From NCBI RefSeq assembly GCF_900343145.1, contig NZ_LT996886.1:2604001-2668000 (forward strand): a DNA stretch of 64,000 nt, in the 5' to 3' direction. The notes below the pieces were generated by a model, which did no database searches, was not told the DNA's origin, and saw only the letters and a list, made by a program, of their open reading frames with translations. The stretch is from Tessaracoccus timonensis (GTDB lineage Bacteria; Actinomycetota; Actinomycetes; Propionibacteriales; Propionibacteriaceae). The first letter of the stretch is position 1; each line of letters begins with the position of its first letter. The translations under genes were made by a program, and so were the position numbers. Below, piece by piece: positions 2,807 through 44,765 of the stretch.

Positions 2807-4003
2807 TCAAGCGGCGGCTGGTGTTCTTGGTTGGTAGTAGGTGCCGTTGCGGAGCATGGCGTGAAGGACGTCGACGCGTCGTCGGGCGAGGCAGACGAGG
2901 GCGGCGTTGTGTTTCTTCCCAGCGGCGCGTTTGCGGTCGTAGTAGGCGCGTGAATCAGGATCGTGGAGGGCTGCGAAGGCCGAGAGGAACAGTGCTCGTT
3001 TGAGGTGTTTGTTCCCGCCGCGTGAGGGAAGCTCTCCGCGGATGCTGGATCCGGATCGCCGGGTGACCGGGGCCAAGCCAGCGTAGGCCGCGAGATGGCC
3101 TGCGGTGGGGAACGCGGAGCCGTCACCGACGTCGAGGAGGAGTCTGGCTGCGGTCCTGATGCCGACTCCAGGCATTGACATCAGGAGCTGGGAAAGAGGG
3201 TGCGCATCGAGGGCCTCCTCGACTTGTTTGGCGGCCTCAGCGCGCTGCGTGAGCAGGCCCTGGAGTTGGGCTGCGAGCTGGGGCAAGACCAGCTCGGCTG
3301 CCCGGGTGCCGGGGACGGTCACGGTTTGCTCTGTCAGGGCCTTCACGATGGCCTCGACAAGGCGCTCGTGCATGCGTGGCGCCAGCGCTTTGGCGGTGGT
3401 GGTGAGACGGCGCCTACCGGCGTCGGCGAGTCCGGTGGGGCCGCAGTACTTGGCCAGTAGGGCCAGCACTGCGGGGTGGCTGATGTTGCCGCCGATGGCG
3501 CGTTCGAGCGCGGGGTGGATCTGGGTGAGGAGGCCGCGGATCCGGTTGGAGACGCGGTTGACTTCGCCTGCGAGGTCGTCGTCGAACCCGACGATCACGG
3601 CGAGGTCGGCGATCAGGTCGTCGTCGCCGCCGACGCGTCGCAGCGCGTGGGGCATGGTGCGGCCGGCCTCGGCGATGATGTAGACGTCGCGGGCGTCGGT
3701 CTTCGCGTTGCCCGGGTGGAGATCGGCGATGCGGCGCATCGCCAGTCCCGGTAGGTAGGCGACCTCGATACCCATCGCGCGAGCCACCGTGACCGGCAGG
3801 GCGCCGATCGTGGCGGGCTGGTCCACGATCACCAACACCAACCCATGGGCGGTGAGCTTGGCGAACACCTCACGTAGAGCAGTCTCATCCTGGGGCAGGG
3901 CCTTGTCATGCAGTCGTTTCCCGCCAGCGTTGAGGGCGGTGGCGTGGTGGTGTTCTTTGCCGACGTCGAGGCCGACGAACACGTTGAAGCGGTGTTGGTC
4001 CAT
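2807..4003 (-). CDS. IS110-family transposase (DEDD recombinase)
   Basis: 398 residues. The N-terminal DEDD_Tnp_IS110 domain opens with FVGLDVGKEHHHA, giving the first catalytic Asp at residue 13, followed by IVDQPATIGA and GNAKTDARDVYIIAEA. The C-terminal Transposase_20 domain carries MPGVGIRTAARLLLDVGD, LAAYAGLAPVTRRSG and GNKHLKRALFLSAF; its serine-recombinase-like chemistry is known from the family. A longer frame exists upstream, but the ATG at 4003 has a strong GAGGAGG ribosome site six bases before it and gives the usual family N-terminus. The gene looks intact. It needs a structured RNA from the non-coding end beside its start codon, by analogy with IS621. Confidence 0.92.
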   Translation of the reverse strand: MDQHRFNVFVGLDVGKEHHHATALNAGGKRLHDKALPQDETALREVFAKLTAHGLVLVIVDQPATIGALPVTVARAMGIEVAYLPGLAMRRIADLHPGNAKTDARDVYIIAEAGRTMPHALRRVGGDDDLIADLAVIVGFDDDLAGEVNRVSNRIRGLLTQIHPALERAIGGNISHPAVLALLAKYCGPTGLADAGRRRLTTTAKALAPRMHERLVEAIVKALTEQTVTVPGTRAAELVLPQLAAQLQGLLTQRAEAAKQVEEALDAHPLSQLLMSMPGVGIRTAARLLLDVGDGSAFPTAGHLAAYAGLAPVTRRSGSSIRGELPSRGGNKHLKRALFLSAFAALHDPDSRAYYDRKRAAGKKHNAALVCLARRRVDVLHAMLRNGTYYQPRTPAAA

Positions 4004-4127
4004 AGCGGTCCTCCTCAGAGGGTTCCATTCTGGCCGCAAGTCAGGCGAAGATCGTCGGCACCCACGTTACGAGAGGCCACGCTGTCATGCAGCGGGCCGT
4101 GTCCCTATCAGCGATCAACCCACGCCA

Positions 4128-4217
4128 CCAGGACCCGGTGACAACACCCCCCGGATCATCAACGACAGGGGCAGTAAGTCATGCCGGGCCTGGCGACCAG
4201 AACCCCGACCATCGGGG
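4128..4217 (-). ncRNA. Putative IS110 bridge-RNA region in the non-coding element end
   Basis: The non-coding end upstream of the transposase can fold into a six-pair hairpin (4203-4208 with 4212-4217, CCCCGA/TCGGGG, three-base loop). Next to it is a longer helix pairing 4128-4138 (CCAGGACCCGG) with 4184-4193 (CCGGGCCTGG, one bulged A) around a 45-base internal region. A homologous segment at 44291-44379 keeps both helices with changed sequence. In IS110 relatives with a long upstream end, this region encodes the guide RNA that binds target and donor DNA. RNA identity is inferred from position and fold. Confidence 0.55.
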
Positions 4218-4221
4218 ATAC

Positions 4222-4757
4222 CTAGGGCATGTCTGACAATCGTTTTGACCATGCGAGCACAGCATTCAGGACCACAGCGGCCCTGTAGATGATCGCGTAC
4301 TTGTCATACCGGGTCGCCAGACCCCGCCACTGCTTCAGGTGAGCGTACTGACGCTCGATGACGTTGCGGCCCTTGTAGGCGTCCGCGTCGAGGCTGACGG
4401 GGCGCCCGCCGCGGGCACCGCGCCGTCTGCGGTGGCCCTGCTGGTCGGCCGGTTCGGGGATGACCGCTTTGATCCCACGGGCACGTAGGTGGGTGCGGAT
4501 CGCCCGGGAGGAGTACGCCTTATCGCCCAGCACGGCCTCGGGGCGGGTCCGGGGCCGCCCTACTGGCCGGGTCACGCGCAGCTGCTCCAGAAGAGGAAGC
4601 AGCATCGGGGAGTCCCCTGCCTGGCCGGGGGTGATCAGGCTGACCAGCGGCAGCCCGGTCCCATCGACGAGCTGATGGATCTTCGTGCTCAGCCCGCCAC
4701 GGGAGCGCCCGATGCCGTGATCGGCCGGCTCCTCACGCGGATTCTTGTAGTTCGATC
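4222..4757 (-). CDS. IS5-family transposase, C-terminal catalytic frame (orfB)
   Basis: This frame carries the rest of the DDE domain: EEPADHGIGRSRGGLSTKIH, LPLVSLITPGQAGDSPM, VLGDKAYSSRAIR (second Asp) and YKGRNVIERQYAHLKQWRGLATRYDK (the Glu). Its first internal ATG is at 4605, but similarity begins further upstream near 4757, so it is normally made as a fusion with orfA by frameshifting. The stop codon TAG (4222-4224) is completed by the TA of the target duplication outside the element. Expression as an active enzyme depends on the frame change at the G run. Confidence 0.8.
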
Positions 4758-5163
4758 CATCCCCCTGTGTGGCGGGTGATGTTCGTCGCGTGCTGGGGGG
4801 CGCGGGCGATCGTGGAGTCCACCGAGACCGACCAATCGATCAGGCCTTCGGCGTCAGCGGCGGCGGTCAGCGTGGCCAGCACCGTGTCCCAGGTGCCTTT
4901 TTCGGCCAAGCGCCGATGCCAGGTCCACACGGTCTGCCAGGGCCCGTAGACCTCGGGCAGATCCCTCCAAGCGATTCCGCACCGGTACCGGTAGATGATC
5001 GCCTCCACCATGGCGCGGGCGTCGGCGAACGGCCTGCCGGCGCGGCCGGTCCGGGTCGGGAGCATCGGGGCGATCAACTCCCATTGGGCGTCGGAGAGCA
5101 TCTGGAACCGGGACATGTCCCCAGGGTCTCAGCTGACTCGTGCATCTATTCTCAGACACGCCC
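4225..5163 (-). mobile_element. IS5-family (IS427-like) insertion sequence
   Basis: 939 bp bounded by imperfect 17-bp inverted repeats: AGGGCATGTCTGACAAT at the left end and AGGGCGTGTCTGAGAAT read inward from the right, 15 of 17 matching. TA lies just outside both ends, the two-base target duplication usual for this group. It contains the two transposase frames below. Its left end sits against the IS110 non-coding end and its right end lies only 12 bases from the trpS stop codon. Confidence 0.88.
4733..5116 (-). CDS. IS5-family transposase, N-terminal frame (orfA)
   Basis: 127 residues. It has the DUF4096-type N-terminal helix-turn-helix domain (LSDAQWELIAPMLP, YRYRCGIAWRDLP, GPWQTVWTWHRRLAEKGTW) and reaches the first catalytic Asp in the motif SVSVDSTIARAPQHA. 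The frame then ends shortly after a run of five G near 4765. The continuing catalytic domain lies in another frame (next entry). Removing one G from the run would join the two as ...RHTGDGSNYKNPREEPADH. This may be recoding or an inactivating indel; the sequence alone cannot decide. Confidence 0.85.
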   Translation of the reverse strand: MSRFQMLSDAQWELIAPMLPTRTGRAGRPFADARAMVEAIIYRYRCGIAWRDLPEVYGPWQTVWTWHRRLAEKGTWDTVLATLTAAADAEGLIDWSVSVDSTIARAPQHATNITRHTGGWIELQESA

Positions 5164-5175
5164 TAACAGTAGGGC

Positions 5176-6267
5176 TCAGTAGTACACCATCTGCATCGCG
5201 GTGCGGACCTCATCCAAGGTCTGTGCCGCGATGTCGCGTGCCCGCTCGTTACCCGCTCGCAGCACGCTCTCCAGGAAGCCCAGATCTTGTTCCAGCTCCG
5301 TACGGCGGGCGCGAATGGGGGCAAGATACTCGTTGAGCGCTTCGGTGACGAGCTTCTTGAGGCCGCCGCCACCGGCGTCGCCAAGCTCGGCGGCAACGTC
5401 GACAGGGTCACGGTCGAGTGCGAGCGCTGCAATGTTAACCAGGTTGGACACCTCGGGACGATGCTCGGGTTCGTAGGTGATGTGGCGGTCGGAATCGGTG
5501 ACGGCACGCTTGATCAGCTTGGCAGTCTCGTCAGCAGTGAACCCAATCTCGATGGTGTTGTTCCGAGATTTGCTCATCTTCGCGCCATCGAGACCAAGCA
5601 CAGTGCCTGACTTGCTCAGCAGCGCTTCGGGCTCGGGGAAGACGGGGGTGGCCTCGTCGGCGCGCCCATAGCGCTCGTCGAAGCGCCTGGCGATGACACG
5701 GGCCTGCTCGAGGTGCGGCAGCTGGTCTTTACCCACTGGCACGAGGTTCGCTTTGCAGAACAAGATGTCAGCTGCCTGGTGCACCGGGTAGGTGAGCAGC
5801 AGGCCAGACATCGGTCGTCCGTCGGTAGCCTCCAGTTCCGTCTTCACCGTTGGGTTGCGGCGAAGTTCTGCGTCGGTGGCGAGCGAGAGGAACGGCAACA
5901 TGAGCTGGTTCAGCTCGGGTAGCGAAGAGTGCGTGAAGAAGGTGACCTCTTCCGGGTCCAGCCCCACAGAAAGGTAGTCGGTCAGCAGCGAATAGACGCG
6001 ATCCCGGATGGGACCCACGCCGTCGCGATCAGTGATGACTTGGTAGTCGGCGATGAGCACCATCGTCTCGACGCCTGCTTTCGCCAGGCGGACCCTGTTC
6101 TCCAGCGACCCGAACAGGTGTCCGATGTGCAGGTTGCCCGTGGGGCGGTCGCCTGTCAGGATCCGGAATTTGCTGGGATCCTTGGCGATCTCCTGTTCAA
6201 TGGCCAGGCTGCGTTGCGTGGAACGCGCGAGCGATGCTTCCGGATCAAAGTGGGTCGAAGTCGTCAT
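5176..6267 (-). CDS. trpS: Tryptophanyl-tRNA synthetase
   Basis: Charges tRNA-Trp with tryptophan in the cytoplasm. 363 residues, class Ic. The HIGH signature is at residues 47-50 within RPTGNLHIGH, and the KMSKS loop is in GAKMSKSRNN in the second half. TDAELRRNPTVKTE and LTYPVHQAADILF are typical of bacterial TrpRS. The N-terminal extension of roughly 30 residues before FRILTGDRPTG is longer than in the shortest homologues. A TACGCT box lies seven bases before the ATG, with GGAG in between, so the mRNA may be leaderless. An IS5 element ends 12 bases after the stop codon, so any native terminator has been displaced. Confidence 0.96.
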   Translation of the reverse strand: MTTSTHFDPEASLARSTQRSLAIEQEIAKDPSKFRILTGDRPTGNLHIGHLFGSLENRVRLAKAGVETMVLIADYQVITDRDGVGPIRDRVYSLLTDYLSVGLDPEEVTFFTHSSLPELNQLMLPFLSLATDAELRRNPTVKTELEATDGRPMSGLLLTYPVHQAADILFCKANLVPVGKDQLPHLEQARVIARRFDERYGRADEATPVFPEPEALLSKSGTVLGLDGAKMSKSRNNTIEIGFTADETAKLIKRAVTDSDRHITYEPEHRPEVSNLVNIAALALDRDPVDVAAELGDAGGGGLKKLVTEALNEYLAPIRARRTELEQDLGFLESVLRAGNERARDIAAQTLDEVRTAMQMVYY

Positions 6268-23189: not shown

Positions 23190-24165
23190 GTTTTGCGGCC
23201 TGATGCATAACGTCTCTTCGTAACGTGGGTGCCGGCAGCTGACGCATCACCGTCCTTTGGCTACCGTCGCTTCAGTGAAAGGACGATGGTCGAAATCAGC
23301 GAGGCCACCGGTATCGACATCTGGTGCGGGCTAAATGTGGGAAAGCAAGTCCATCACCCCTGCGCACTGAACTCTGCCGGGAAGAAAGTATTCGACAAAC
23401 CTCTACCCCAAGACCAGAGCAGGATGGAGGCGATACTCTGCACCCTCGCCGAGCACGGCCGGGTCCTTATGATCGTCGACCAACCCACCGCAATCGGCGC
23501 CTTGCCGATCGCGGTTGCCCGGGCGATGGGCATCCTGATCGCCCACCTACATGGCCTGGCGATGCGCTGCACTGCAGGCCTCTATCTAAGCAATGCGAAG
23601 GCCGACGCGCTTGACGCGTTCATCATCGCCGACGCCGCCGGACCATGCCTCACACCCTGCACGGGGCCAATACGGGTGAGGAAACCCTCGCCGAACTCAA
23701 GACTCTAGTCGGCTTGATCGGGTGATGCTTACCCTCTTTCCGAGATCCAGACCTCGATACAAGGCGTTGGGGATCAGGACAGCCGCACAGATCCTGCTCA
23801 GGGCCGGCGATGCCTCTACCTTCCCCACTGTCGGACACCTCGCAGCCTATGCCGGGCTCGCACCCGTCACACGGCGGTCCGGCACCACGCTCCGCGGCGA
23901 ATTCCCCGCACGTACTGGGAATAAGAACCTCAATGAGCTCTGTTCCTGTCCGCCTTCGTAGCACCCCGAACAGAGCCGACCAGCCGGCCCACTATGGCTG
24001 CAAACGAACCCAAGGCAAGAAACACACCGCCGCCATCAACTGCCTAGCCCGCCGACGCTGAAATTCCCCATTCGCCATGCTCAAAAACCAGGAGCCCTAC
24101 TGGACACCCACACCGACCCCAGAACTATCGTCCATACCCCTCGCCGGTTGATAAGGAACATAGGG
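23190..24165 (+). mobile_element. Degenerate IS110-family element
   Basis: A dead relative of the element at 2790-4220, in the opposite orientation. Its left part keeps the string CGTAACGTGGGTGCCG found just upstream of the intact transposase, but the distal hairpin region of the non-coding end is gone. The right end near 24150 reads AAGGAACATAGGGACAC, close to the intact element's terminus. The boundaries are estimated from these matches. Confidence 0.7.
23286..24061 (+). pseudogene. IS110-family transposase remnant
   Basis: The first part reads WCGLNVGKQVHHPCALNSAGKK, IVDQPTAIGALPIAVARAMG and SNAKADALDAFIIADAAG. The catalytic-region GLDVG of the intact copy is GLNVG here, and KTDARD is KADALD. 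After about residue 130 the frame breaks and the central region is deleted. A second frame gives LGIRTAAQILLRAGDASTFPTVGHLAAYAGLAPVTRRSG and a third gives the tail KRTQGKKHTAAINCLARRR. Loss of two acidic residues, an internal deletion and two frameshifts make it inactive. Confidence 0.85.
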
Positions 24166-24197
24166 ACACTCCTACGCCACGGGCATCACATGACCGG

Positions 24198-42390: not shown

Positions 42391-42571
42391 ACTCACTTCG
42401 CGCTCTGCTCGGCGCGGTCCTTGACCGTTCCACCCACAACGGCGACAAGCACATCAATCCGTCGCTTGGATGCGGCCTGTGGTGCCGGTCGCTGTAACAA
42501 ATCCACCACCTGGCGCAATGAAGATGGTAGAGGCCAACGACGACCTCAGTAAATGCCCGAAGGAGACTAGT

Positions 42572-43642
42572 GTGAACACCAACGGCCCCTCGAAAAAACG
42601 CTCAAAGCTCATCACGTCCTCGCTCGTGACGACACTGATGGTTGGTTCGCTGATCACCTTGCCACCGCCATCGGCTCAGGCAGACGCCCACGATCCTGTC
42701 GAGCACCAAGTTCTCCCGTTAGCCGCCGACATCGAAGCCATCTCGGACGCCTTGTTCGTTGACGGTGCGGTGTCTGTAGCGTCGTCTCGCGATGCCGGCT
42801 CTGCCTCAGCTCCGATGAGGGAGTACATCTCAGAGCTAGAGGCAGAAGCATCCTCACTGCGCGCGGCCGGAGGAGTGACTGTTCTGGACACCACAGCCGA
42901 GATCATGATTGAAGACTCCCAGACAGAACCGGGGGTAGTGCAGGGATATCTGCACGTGACTCGCACGGTTGCGGAACTGCCGCAGGGTGAGCTGTGGGAG
43001 GAAATGATTCCGATCACCTTGACCTCCACATCTGAAGGGGAGTTGCGTGTCAATCATGTCGAAGTGTCGCCGCTGGCGTCCTTAAATGCAGCGGAGCTCG
43101 CCGAGCGCACCACCACCCCTTCACTTGAGGAAGGGGCTGCTTCCATCGATCTCTCGGGTCCGGCGGCTCCACGCCCGCAGGCCATCAACGCAACGAAAGT
43201 AGTCAACTACGCCAAGAAGTGGTGGAACGGCAGGAATCGCGACTACCCGACCAAGTACAAGAACGACTGCACCAACTTTGCCTCTCAGGCGATGCACCAA
43301 GGCGGGTGGAAGACAGTCAGCGGCTGCTACCGCTCGGACAAAGCTTGGTGGTACAACGCCTTGAACACCTCATACTCGTGGGGCGGGGCAGAGAACTTCT
43401 ACCGCTTCGCGGTCAACGAATCAAAGCGAGCCAAGACCCTGCGCTACGTCAAAGATCTGTGGCTGGGAGACATCCTGCAATACAAGAGCAAGGGTGCTAC
43501 AAATATGTCCCACACCATGATCGTCACGAACTGGATCAACAAGATCCCATATCTAACGTATCACACCCGGGACACGCTCAACAAGCCCTTCACTGCGGTC
43601 AAACACCTGGACGTGACATGGTTCGCTCTCAACGTTCTGTAG
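42572..43642 (+). CDS. Exported protein with an Amidase_6-type domain
   Basis: 356 residues from the GTG at 42572, which has AAGGAG just upstream. A signal peptide (LITSSLVTTLMVGSLITLPPPSAQADA) is followed by a spacer region rich in Glu/Ser. The C-terminal 150 residues have the catalytic Cys block YPTKYKNDCTNFASQAMHQGGW and the His block NMSHTMIVTNW of the NlpC/P60-like Amidase_6 family. The family is thought to act on cell-wall or peptide amides outside the cell. The next gene overlaps its 3' end by 25 bases. Confidence 0.8.
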   Translation: MNTNGPSKKRSKLITSSLVTTLMVGSLITLPPPSAQADAHDPVEHQVLPLAADIEAISDALFVDGAVSVASSRDAGSASAPMREYISELEAEASSLRAAGGVTVLDTTAEIMIEDSQTEPGVVQGYLHVTRTVAELPQGELWEEMIPITLTSTSEGELRVNHVEVSPLASLNAAELAERTTTPSLEEGAASIDLSGPAAPRPQAINATKVVNYAKKWWNGRNRDYPTKYKNDCTNFASQAMHQGGWKTVSGCYRSDKAWWYNALNTSYSWGGAENFYRFAVNESKRAKTLRYVKDLWLGDILQYKSKGATNMSHTMIVTNWINKIPYLTYHTRDTLNKPFTAVKHLDVTWFALNVL

Positions 43643-44046
43643 TCATCGTTGCAGCCTGCATCGTCGTCGCGGTGGCGGTGATGGTGGCCGGATGGTGGTT
43701 CTGGTGGCACCCGAAGACCGAATTCTCCTGCGACGGCCGAAACGCCGGGGCGGATACCCCAACACTCGCCGCCTCCAGATTCGTCACCAGTCTCGTCGAG
43801 CGCGACACCGAAACCGCATGCACCATCCTCACCAACAAGATCGAACACGACGAGCTCCAGGCCCAACTAGAGAGTTTGTGGAAACAGCTCGGCGAGCCCA
43901 CCGACCCAGCAGACATCGACGTCACCATCGGTGATCAAGGTGGAAGCAGCTTCCCTCTCGCTCTGGAAGGTCCGCACGGCACCGCTGAACTGAGTATCTT
44001 GTCCTTCCAACGGTGGTACCGCGTGACCCTGCCTTTGCAGCAGTAA
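43618..44046 (+). CDS. Small membrane-anchored extracytoplasmic protein
   Basis: 142 residues. An N-terminal anchor (VVIVAACIVVAVAVMVAGWWFWW) is followed by a DUF4878-like soluble domain: TPTLAASRFVTSLVERDTETACTILTNKIEHDELQAQLESLW and then short strands to WYRVTLPLQQ. The layout resembles small NTF2-like lipoprotein domains, but there is no lipobox. It is coupled to the amidase gene by a 25-base overlap and probably works with it at the membrane surface. Function is unknown. Confidence 0.6.
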   Translation: MVRSQRSVVIVAACIVVAVAVMVAGWWFWWHPKTEFSCDGRNAGADTPTLAASRFVTSLVERDTETACTILTNKIEHDELQAQLESLWKQLGEPTDPADIDVTIGDQGGSSFPLALEGPHGTAELSILSFQRWYRVTLPLQQ

Positions 44047-44279
44047 CGCCAATCAGGGCCGGCTTCGGGACCCGCCGCTCCGGTGCCCATCAAACAGCGG
44101 CATCGATCACGAGCAAGCCTCCTCTTTCTCTTCAGCGTGAGGGCGCGGTGGCCCTTGGTGTAGCTACTGCAGCCAAGGGCTGCTTCGAAGTGGCAGCAAG
44201 CCACTCGTTGGCGGCAGCATCGCTCGTTCCTCCTAGCCACCGCGGCAAATTCCATCATCTGGCTCGAGTCCAAGTCCAA
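44047..44279. other. Intergenic stretch without a supported gene, left of the orphan IS110 end
   Basis: By analogy with the element at 2790-4220, a transposase start would lie here on the minus strand. A GGAGG-preceded ATG occurs near 44212, but the frame does not match the IS110 N-terminus. The transposase appears to be lost or too diverged to see. Confidence 0.4.
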
Positions 44280-44290
44280 GGGGGGTGTCT

Positions 44291-44379
44291 CTCGGTCGGG
44301 TGGCAACACCCCCCGGACCATCAATGGCAGGGCGAGACAGCCATGCCCGACCGAGCGACCAGATCCCCGACGTTCGAGG
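44291..44379 (-). ncRNA. Orphan IS110-type non-coding end (bridge-RNA-like)
   Basis: Homologous to 4128-4217 over about 80 bases, roughly 80% identical by eye, including the run AACACCCCCCGGA. It keeps both helices with different sequence: CTCGGTCGGG (44291-44300) with CCCGACCGAG (44346-44355), and CCCCGA (44365-44370) with TCGAGG (44374-44379). No transposase is recognisable beside it. Confidence 0.5.
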
Positions 44380-44591
44380 ACTCTTCCAAGGTAACGGGGT
44401 GGAGAAGATCAGGAGCCAGATCCGCTCGTAGTGTGGACACCTCCGCTACGGAAAGGGAGGTACTGGGCGTCGCCCCGCCGAACGCTGGAAAGAAGATTCG
44501 AGGAGAGATTGGTTGATCATTGAATGATCTCTTCCTCGTAGCCGATTACTTCGGCGTCGAGCTTGCGAGCCTTCTTCCCAAGAAAAAGGAA

Positions 44592-44621
44592 ACTCCCGCC
44601 CAATCGAAGTTGGACGGGAGT
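44592..44621 (-). terminator. Intrinsic terminator of the initiator tRNA gene
   Basis: ACTCCCGCCCAA pairs with TTGGACGGGAGT around a six-base loop; on the minus strand it is followed by TTTCCTTTTTC. Position and T run fit a classical terminator. Confidence 0.85.
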
Positions 44622-44631
44622 CCCGATCTCG

Positions 44632-44705
44632 TAGCGGGGACAGGATTTGAACCTGTGACCTCTGGGTTATGAGCCCAGCGAGCTACCGAGCTGCTCCACC
44701 CCGCG
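44632..44705 (-). tRNA. Initiator tRNA-Met (CAT)
   Basis: 74 nt without an encoded CCA. Acceptor 5' strand CGCGGGG, D-arm GAGCAGCTCGGTAGCTC, anticodon arm CTGGGCTCATAACCCAG with CAT and T-arm ACAGGTTCAAATCCTGT. The first base C faces a T at the 3' side, leaving the unpaired 1-72 position that marks initiator tRNAs. The anticodon stem carries three G-C pairs as expected for an initiator. A terminator follows. Confidence 0.94.
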
Positions 44706-44716
44706 GCGCTCGATCT

Positions 44717-44722
44717 ACTATA
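44717..44722 (-). promoter_or_regulatory. -10 box of the initiator tRNA gene
   Basis: TATAGT on the minus strand, 11 bases before the mature 5' end of the tRNA. Confidence 0.5.
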
Positions 44723-44752
44723 GACCTCTGACGGCAAAGCACCAAATCGAGC

Positions 44753-44758
44753 TACGGT
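44753..44758 (+). promoter_or_regulatory. -10 box, leaderless start of the AXE1 esterase gene
   Basis: TACGGT followed by seven bases and the ATG at 44766, with no ribosome-binding sequence. Confidence 0.45.
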
Positions 44759-44765
44759 TGCACCT

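Follow-up and report, generated by a model that had tools for sequence, protein, structure and literature searches.

A bridge-RNA lineage of IS110-group elements in Tessaracoccus timonensis and the probable leftover of one of its copies

The closest described system to the locus considered here is the bridge RNA of IS621 and other IS110 elements. In the sections of the two reports that bear on the present comparison (PMC11208160; PMC11208158), the recombinase combines the domains PF01548 and PF02371, a long left end (LE) lies upstream of its gene, the right end (RE) is very short, and the RNA is composed of a 5′ stem-loop and two looped hairpins, the second of which matches the element's own ends. 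The IS1111 elements differ from the IS110 group in that their RNA is located in the RE. In this report, we describe IS110-group elements of T. timonensis, starting from a 64,000-nucleotide stretch (positions 2,604,001-2,668,000) of its single-contig genome (2.76 Mb), hereafter the window. The recombinase domains, the long LE and the very short RE are the same as in IS621, and so, in the complete copies, is the architecture of the RNA; in contrast to IS621 orthologues, however, among which the first loop is described as the less conserved one (PMC11208160, in the part concerned), the first loop here has a 3′ side that is rich in G and hardly varies. Two folded stretches in the window are LE RNA regions of such elements, encoded on the minus strand, which is the transposase-sense strand, and one of them, termed the orphan, is a recent leftover of an element with complete copies elsewhere in the genome and as such an ordinary relic (Table 1). 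The system is thus a known one, represented by a new actinobacterial lineage and a decayed copy. Among the titles listed, none dealt with natural orphan or split bridge RNAs; nothing was found on IS110 in Tessaracoccus, and IS110 combined with internal deletion led to work that, to judge from titles, seems unrelated.

Table 1 Coordinates of the orphan, its parts and other features in the window
Feature	Position	Strand	Basis
Internal-deletion derivative of an IS110-group element (orphan)	44280..44398	-	About 119 bp left of 1,479; 114/114 identity of 44285-44398 with the LE of complete copies
GGGGGGTGTC, the same 10 nt as the RE tip of complete copies	44280..44289	-	End comparison
GTGTC, common to RE tip and LE interior, join of the deletion	44285..44289	-	End comparison
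5′ stem-loop and target-binding hairpin, first half of a bridge RNA	44285..44389	-	Covariance model R1, 104.6 bits, E 3.4e-25
Target-binding hairpin, stem (CTCGGTCGGG, 44291-44300, paired with CCCGACCGAG, 44346-44355) and internal loop	44291..44355	-	Sequence, fold, covariation
5′ stem-loop, CCTCGA/TCGGGG on the minus strand	44365..44379	-	Sequence, fold
LE tip CCCGTTACC of the orphan	44390..44398	-	Highly conserved in the outer ends of relatives
IS110 transposase of an element distinct from the orphan's source	2807..4003	-	PF01548 and PF02371
LE of the 2807-4003 element with 5′ stem-loop, target-binding and donor-binding hairpins	4004..4224	-	Model match 4122-4227, 104.1 bits
IS5-type element, DUF4096 and DDE pieces over two frames	4225..5163	-	Proteins, ends read
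Strong intrinsic-terminator-like hairpin between tRNA gene and orphan	44589..44624	-	
tRNA gene, transcribed toward the orphan	44632-44705	-	

An earlier note on this DNA had proposed that the two regions align over about 80 bases and keep one fold by compensatory change. The regions are indeed 79% identical over 82 bases, and the two elements have transposases with 60% identity, so the ends are homologous. A covariance-model search, which had been suggested as a check, bears this out: a model built from 33 LEs of other genomes, with no row from the T. timonensis genome, finds exactly two places in the window at E values up to 1, both on the minus strand, with 104.6 and 104.1 bits. Rfam at gathering scores yielded one tmRNA and one tRNA in the window and nothing at either IS110 end. 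The model and the underlying alignment derive from 69 loci, from which L086, L098 and L101 were set aside; of the 66 retained, 58 have a usable LE with both motifs and eight do not. Removal of sequences at 95% similarity or more reduced the set to 34, and exclusion of L066, which is nearly the window's own element, to 33.

Across these 33 relatives, 664 of 692 cells (96.0%) are paired in the transposase sense versus 535 of 692 in antisense; the corresponding values are 87.2% for shuffled and 30-55% for slid controls. Changes on both sides are found in nine of the 21 pairs. Phylogeny was taken into account by a null model simplified after R-scape, in which one ancestral reconstruction is used and substitutions are replayed at random columns weighted by column variability. 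In 300 runs of this null, the paired cells had a mean of 74% and a maximum of 84.5%, so that the observed value was never reached, and the 15 branch-level paired double changes that were observed compare with a mean of 1.5 and a maximum of 6 in 300 simulations. The per-pair all-against-all form of the tree-aware test, which has little power, gave one pair in 21 with E<0.05. The null comparison covered the first hairpin, whereas the 5′ stem-loop and the second hairpin were assigned from folds and alignment. A mere chance similarity of two GC-rich hairpins would agree with the weak z-scores of single-sequence folding (-0.95 to -1.70); it is refuted by the covariance-model matches, the covariation also speaks against it, and its probability is negligible. 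In the second helix of the orphan, CCCCGA (44365-44370) pairs with TCGAGG (44374-44379), and the difference from the other region, previously read as a tolerated G-T change, is acceptable as a G-U pair if the RNA is made from the minus strand, but would amount to C-A on the plus strand. The strongest covarying pair of alignment A3, columns 57-106, is likewise significant, reads U-G or C-A and lies outside the given structure and its canonical helix. U-G and C-A wobble pairs are isosteric, and these columns perhaps form a conserved non-canonical pair.

Four complete IS110 copies of 1,479 bp each are located elsewhere in the chromosome, three of them 99.4-99.6% identical to the fourth (L014), and the recombinase frame is open in all four. 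At L014 the element extends from 994 to 2472 and the gene from 1017 to about 2252-2288, which leaves an RE of about 23 bp and an LE of about 184-220 bp; the LE is much longer than the RE and contains the RNA, as is characteristic of the IS110 group. The protein is assigned to this group via its 60% identity, over the whole length, to the domain-scanned 2807-4003 protein. In window orientation the right ends of the copies read GGGGGGTGTCCCTATG and the left ends AAGGTAACGGG, or ACGGTAACGGG in one copy. Five exact RE tips were counted, one for each open recombinase frame and none extra. In the plasmid collection a single record, an Arthrobacter plasmid, matched 62% of the query at 75%. Within the LE of each complete copy, the 5′ stem-loop is accompanied by a covarying first hairpin, which has an internal loop, and by a second hairpin with AUAGGGACAC and GUAACG in its loop. 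These copies are expected to work like IS110/IS621: a circle would form and the LE would be transcribed as bridge RNA, whose second loop would pair with the element's own ends and whose first loop would pair with the target.

The assignment of the second loop is supported by the ends themselves. AUAGGGACAC is letter-identical to the RE tip, and GUAACG is complementary to the LE tip CGTTAC. One base of the LE tip and its guide base change together: 53 rows have G/C, five have A/T and none is mixed (58 rows, near-identical copies counted), and at least three such changes are placed on the tree of the 33 sequences, which include four of the five variant loci. Because the loop matches both element tips and the variants change jointly, the second hairpin is the donor-binding loop, as described for IS621 in the part of PMC11208160 that deals with it.

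Against this background the origin of the orphan can be traced. Its 114 bases from 44285 to 44398 match three sites of the same chromosome at 100% and a fourth at 99%. At the other end GGGGGGTGTC is followed by TCTCGG of the LE, and comparison with the ends of complete copies places GTGTC on both sides of the join. The 5′ stem-loop and the target-binding hairpin are retained, whereas the recombinase gene and the donor-binding hairpin are gone, so that the orphan, unlike the IS621 bridge RNA (PMC11208160 and PMC11208158, in the parts cited above), has no second hairpin and holds one of the two loops. A tblastn search of its 3.1-kb locus (L143) gave no recombinase match. The interpretation of both regions as IS110 bridge-RNA regions, and of the second as a relic without recombinase, is thereby confirmed. 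The designation orphan is correct locally but not genome-wide, as complete copies with the same LE are present in the chromosome; likewise, the sequence of 44291-44379, whose absence beside any IS110 relative had been named as counter-evidence, adjoins IS110 recombinases in this genome.

We consider the orphan to be the remainder of a recently inserted IS110 element after internal deletion, most likely inert, with a probability of about 0.9. The point of entry of the element was probably a C-run, which reads as a G-run on the plus strand, in the interval from the end of the open frame at 44046 to the tRNA gene. Two short repeats on the transposase strand, AGAGACAC inside the LE and AGGGACAC at the RE tip, would then have been the endpoints of a deletion that joined them at GACAC and took out about 1,360 bp, including the recombinase gene and the half of the bridge RNA that binds the donor; the 10-nt RE tip together with the shared GTGTC is the signature of such an event. 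The RE part comprises just 10 nt, of which five also occur in the LE and some of the C's could stem from the target, the G-run of GGGGGGTGTC being possibly in part derived from the C-run seen at targets; a deletion that ended in flanking DNA instead of the RE tip is less likely. Insertion would have come first and deletion later. No empty site of the orphan was found, and at none of the nine loci compared does the left flank lie beside the conserved right flank, which is about 76% conserved from 44457 in three genomes of the genus (G029, G031, G010) and from 44484 in a fourth (G014); since the left flank is absent there, this order of events is not seen directly. The segment 44457-44600 is about 76% similar to sequence of the genus (L103-L106) that looks like a coding segment for a small DNA-binding protein, and seems to be a remnant here. 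On the other side, an Amidase_6 domain protein (42470-43642) adjoins the open frame 43219-44046, which has no Pfam match.

The sites occupied by the family look like plain C-runs. The end survey comprised 60 rows from 71 loci (the 66 loci, the four complete copies and the orphan), with near-identical copies, such as 12 from Helcobacillus, left uncollapsed. After ATAGGGACAC, each of five bases is C in 45-48 of 51 right-end rows, in which three seemingly false matches (L048, L049, L076) are still counted, and the next base is C in 21 of 51. The number of C's differs among copies of one element in one genome (L060, L062, L064), and a paralogous empty site for one complete copy in the same genome, with flanks 71-76% similar, has CCCC at the join; for the L016 site, no empty site with both flanks adjoining was found. 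The G-run on the 3′ side of the first loop could, to judge from its sequence, read the target C-run. In relatives the left guide of this loop varies. Its best score against target flanks, 1.9 of 7 with an uncorrected p of 0.046 among 16 tests, amounts to no convincing match; the left guide may be unused, or the guide boundaries may differ from the IS621 model. In the comparison of guide loops with element-host junctions, also proposed in the earlier note, the G-run is compatible with the C-runs, but the left guide fits no flank.

The second region belongs to the element with the transposase at 2807-4003. Its protein has both the DEDD RuvC-like domain (PF01548) and Transposase_20 (PF02371) and its alignment with IS621 spans residues 207-391 and takes in the SGSS motif that surrounds the catalytic serine, which, by the numbering of the paper, would correspond to S241 of IS621. 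The outer LE is interrupted at TA by the IS5-type element, which has TA on both sides, and a search of 4151-5400 that allowed one mismatch did not find GGTAACGGG beyond it; L066, from another actinomycete, has a nearly identical LE with the full tip. Because the outer LE is cut and the tip was not found beyond the insertion, the element itself probably cannot move on its own. The earlier note had offered the orphan as a possible partner in trans of this transposase. Location in the same window and the homologous fold (79% over 82 bases) speak in favour of a lost or second guide, but the orphan matches another element, the one with four complete copies, at 100%, and the gene at 2807-4003 has its own LE with both loops; the idea is extremely improbable. 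A third IS110 transposase on the plus strand (23310-24145) is broken into three pieces with one TGA and is followed by an RE-like TAGGGACACTCC at 24161-24172; no covariance-model match for an LE was obtained near it.

The orphan is most likely inert, as it has no recombinase, no donor-binding loop and no RE-LE junction promoter, and as a terminator-like hairpin separates it from the upstream tRNA gene. Two further readings would nevertheless ascribe a function to it. In the first, the orphan would be expressed as a natural split bridge RNA whose target-binding loop works in trans with the donor-binding loops of the complete copies. Separate target- and donor-binding loop molecules of IS621 support recombination in vitro, and the loops in one complex were suggested to come from two RNAs (PMC11208158, in the passages concerned); moreover, the orphan and the complete copies share an identical target hairpin. 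We nonetheless judge this highly unlikely: no promoter-like site was recognized in 44000-44760 with a sigma-70 consensus, the terminator-like hairpin follows the tRNA gene, and the perfect sequence is explained by recency. As the target loop is identical, no new specificity would arise, and action of the orphan in trans, if true, would add nothing new to what the complete copies can do.

In the second reading, which is unlikely, the 119-bp unit would be a miniature non-autonomous element for whose movement the complete copies supply recombinase and bridge RNA in trans. MITE-like derivatives of insertion sequences are internally deleted elements that keep both tips. The orphan resembles them in its internal deletion and its two tips, the sequence on its RE side, AGAGACAC, differs little from AGGGACAC, which the donor guide matches, and the bridge RNA of IS621 can be supplied in trans (PMC11208160, in the section concerned). 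Unlike such derivatives, it is present as a single copy in the genome with no sign of movement, five of the six model matches listed in the genome adjoin a recombinase gene, and the deletion copies of the genus have other breakpoints. In the genus, the covariance model gave at least 26 matches in at least 13 of 39 genomes (T. timonensis included), figures that are lower bounds with 100 candidates scored per genome. The loci of these matches comprise 19 with and seven without a recombinase match, the latter being the orphan, L122, L131, L132, L135, L137 and L142. L122 is interrupted by other sequence with a recombinase piece about 2.7 kb away, and L132 is a weak match (24.6 bits). L139 retains only a C-terminal recombinase fragment, and L128, L130, L133 and L138 have broken or partial genes. 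Like the orphan, L135 and L139 have kept the LE and lost part of the element by internal deletion; they differ from it in their breakpoints, in the recombinase-gene fragments that are kept and in their greater divergence. At L133 (G061 C17), which comes from a different species of the genus, a related IS110 LE lies near a tRNA gene very like that at 44632-44705; the distance is about 72 bp there versus 234 bp here, the orientation to the tRNA gene is opposite, and this may be coincidence.

The orphan shows more generally that a bridge-RNA fold standing alone in a genome may be nothing more than the relic of a deletion. Beyond the relic, the sequence by itself confirms that Actinomycetes have a lineage of bridge RNAs in which the donor guide matches letter for letter and a change of this guide is compensated. 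If targeting of C-runs with an unmatched left guide holds, the bridge RNA of this lineage would be a natural case in which hardly any of the target is read.
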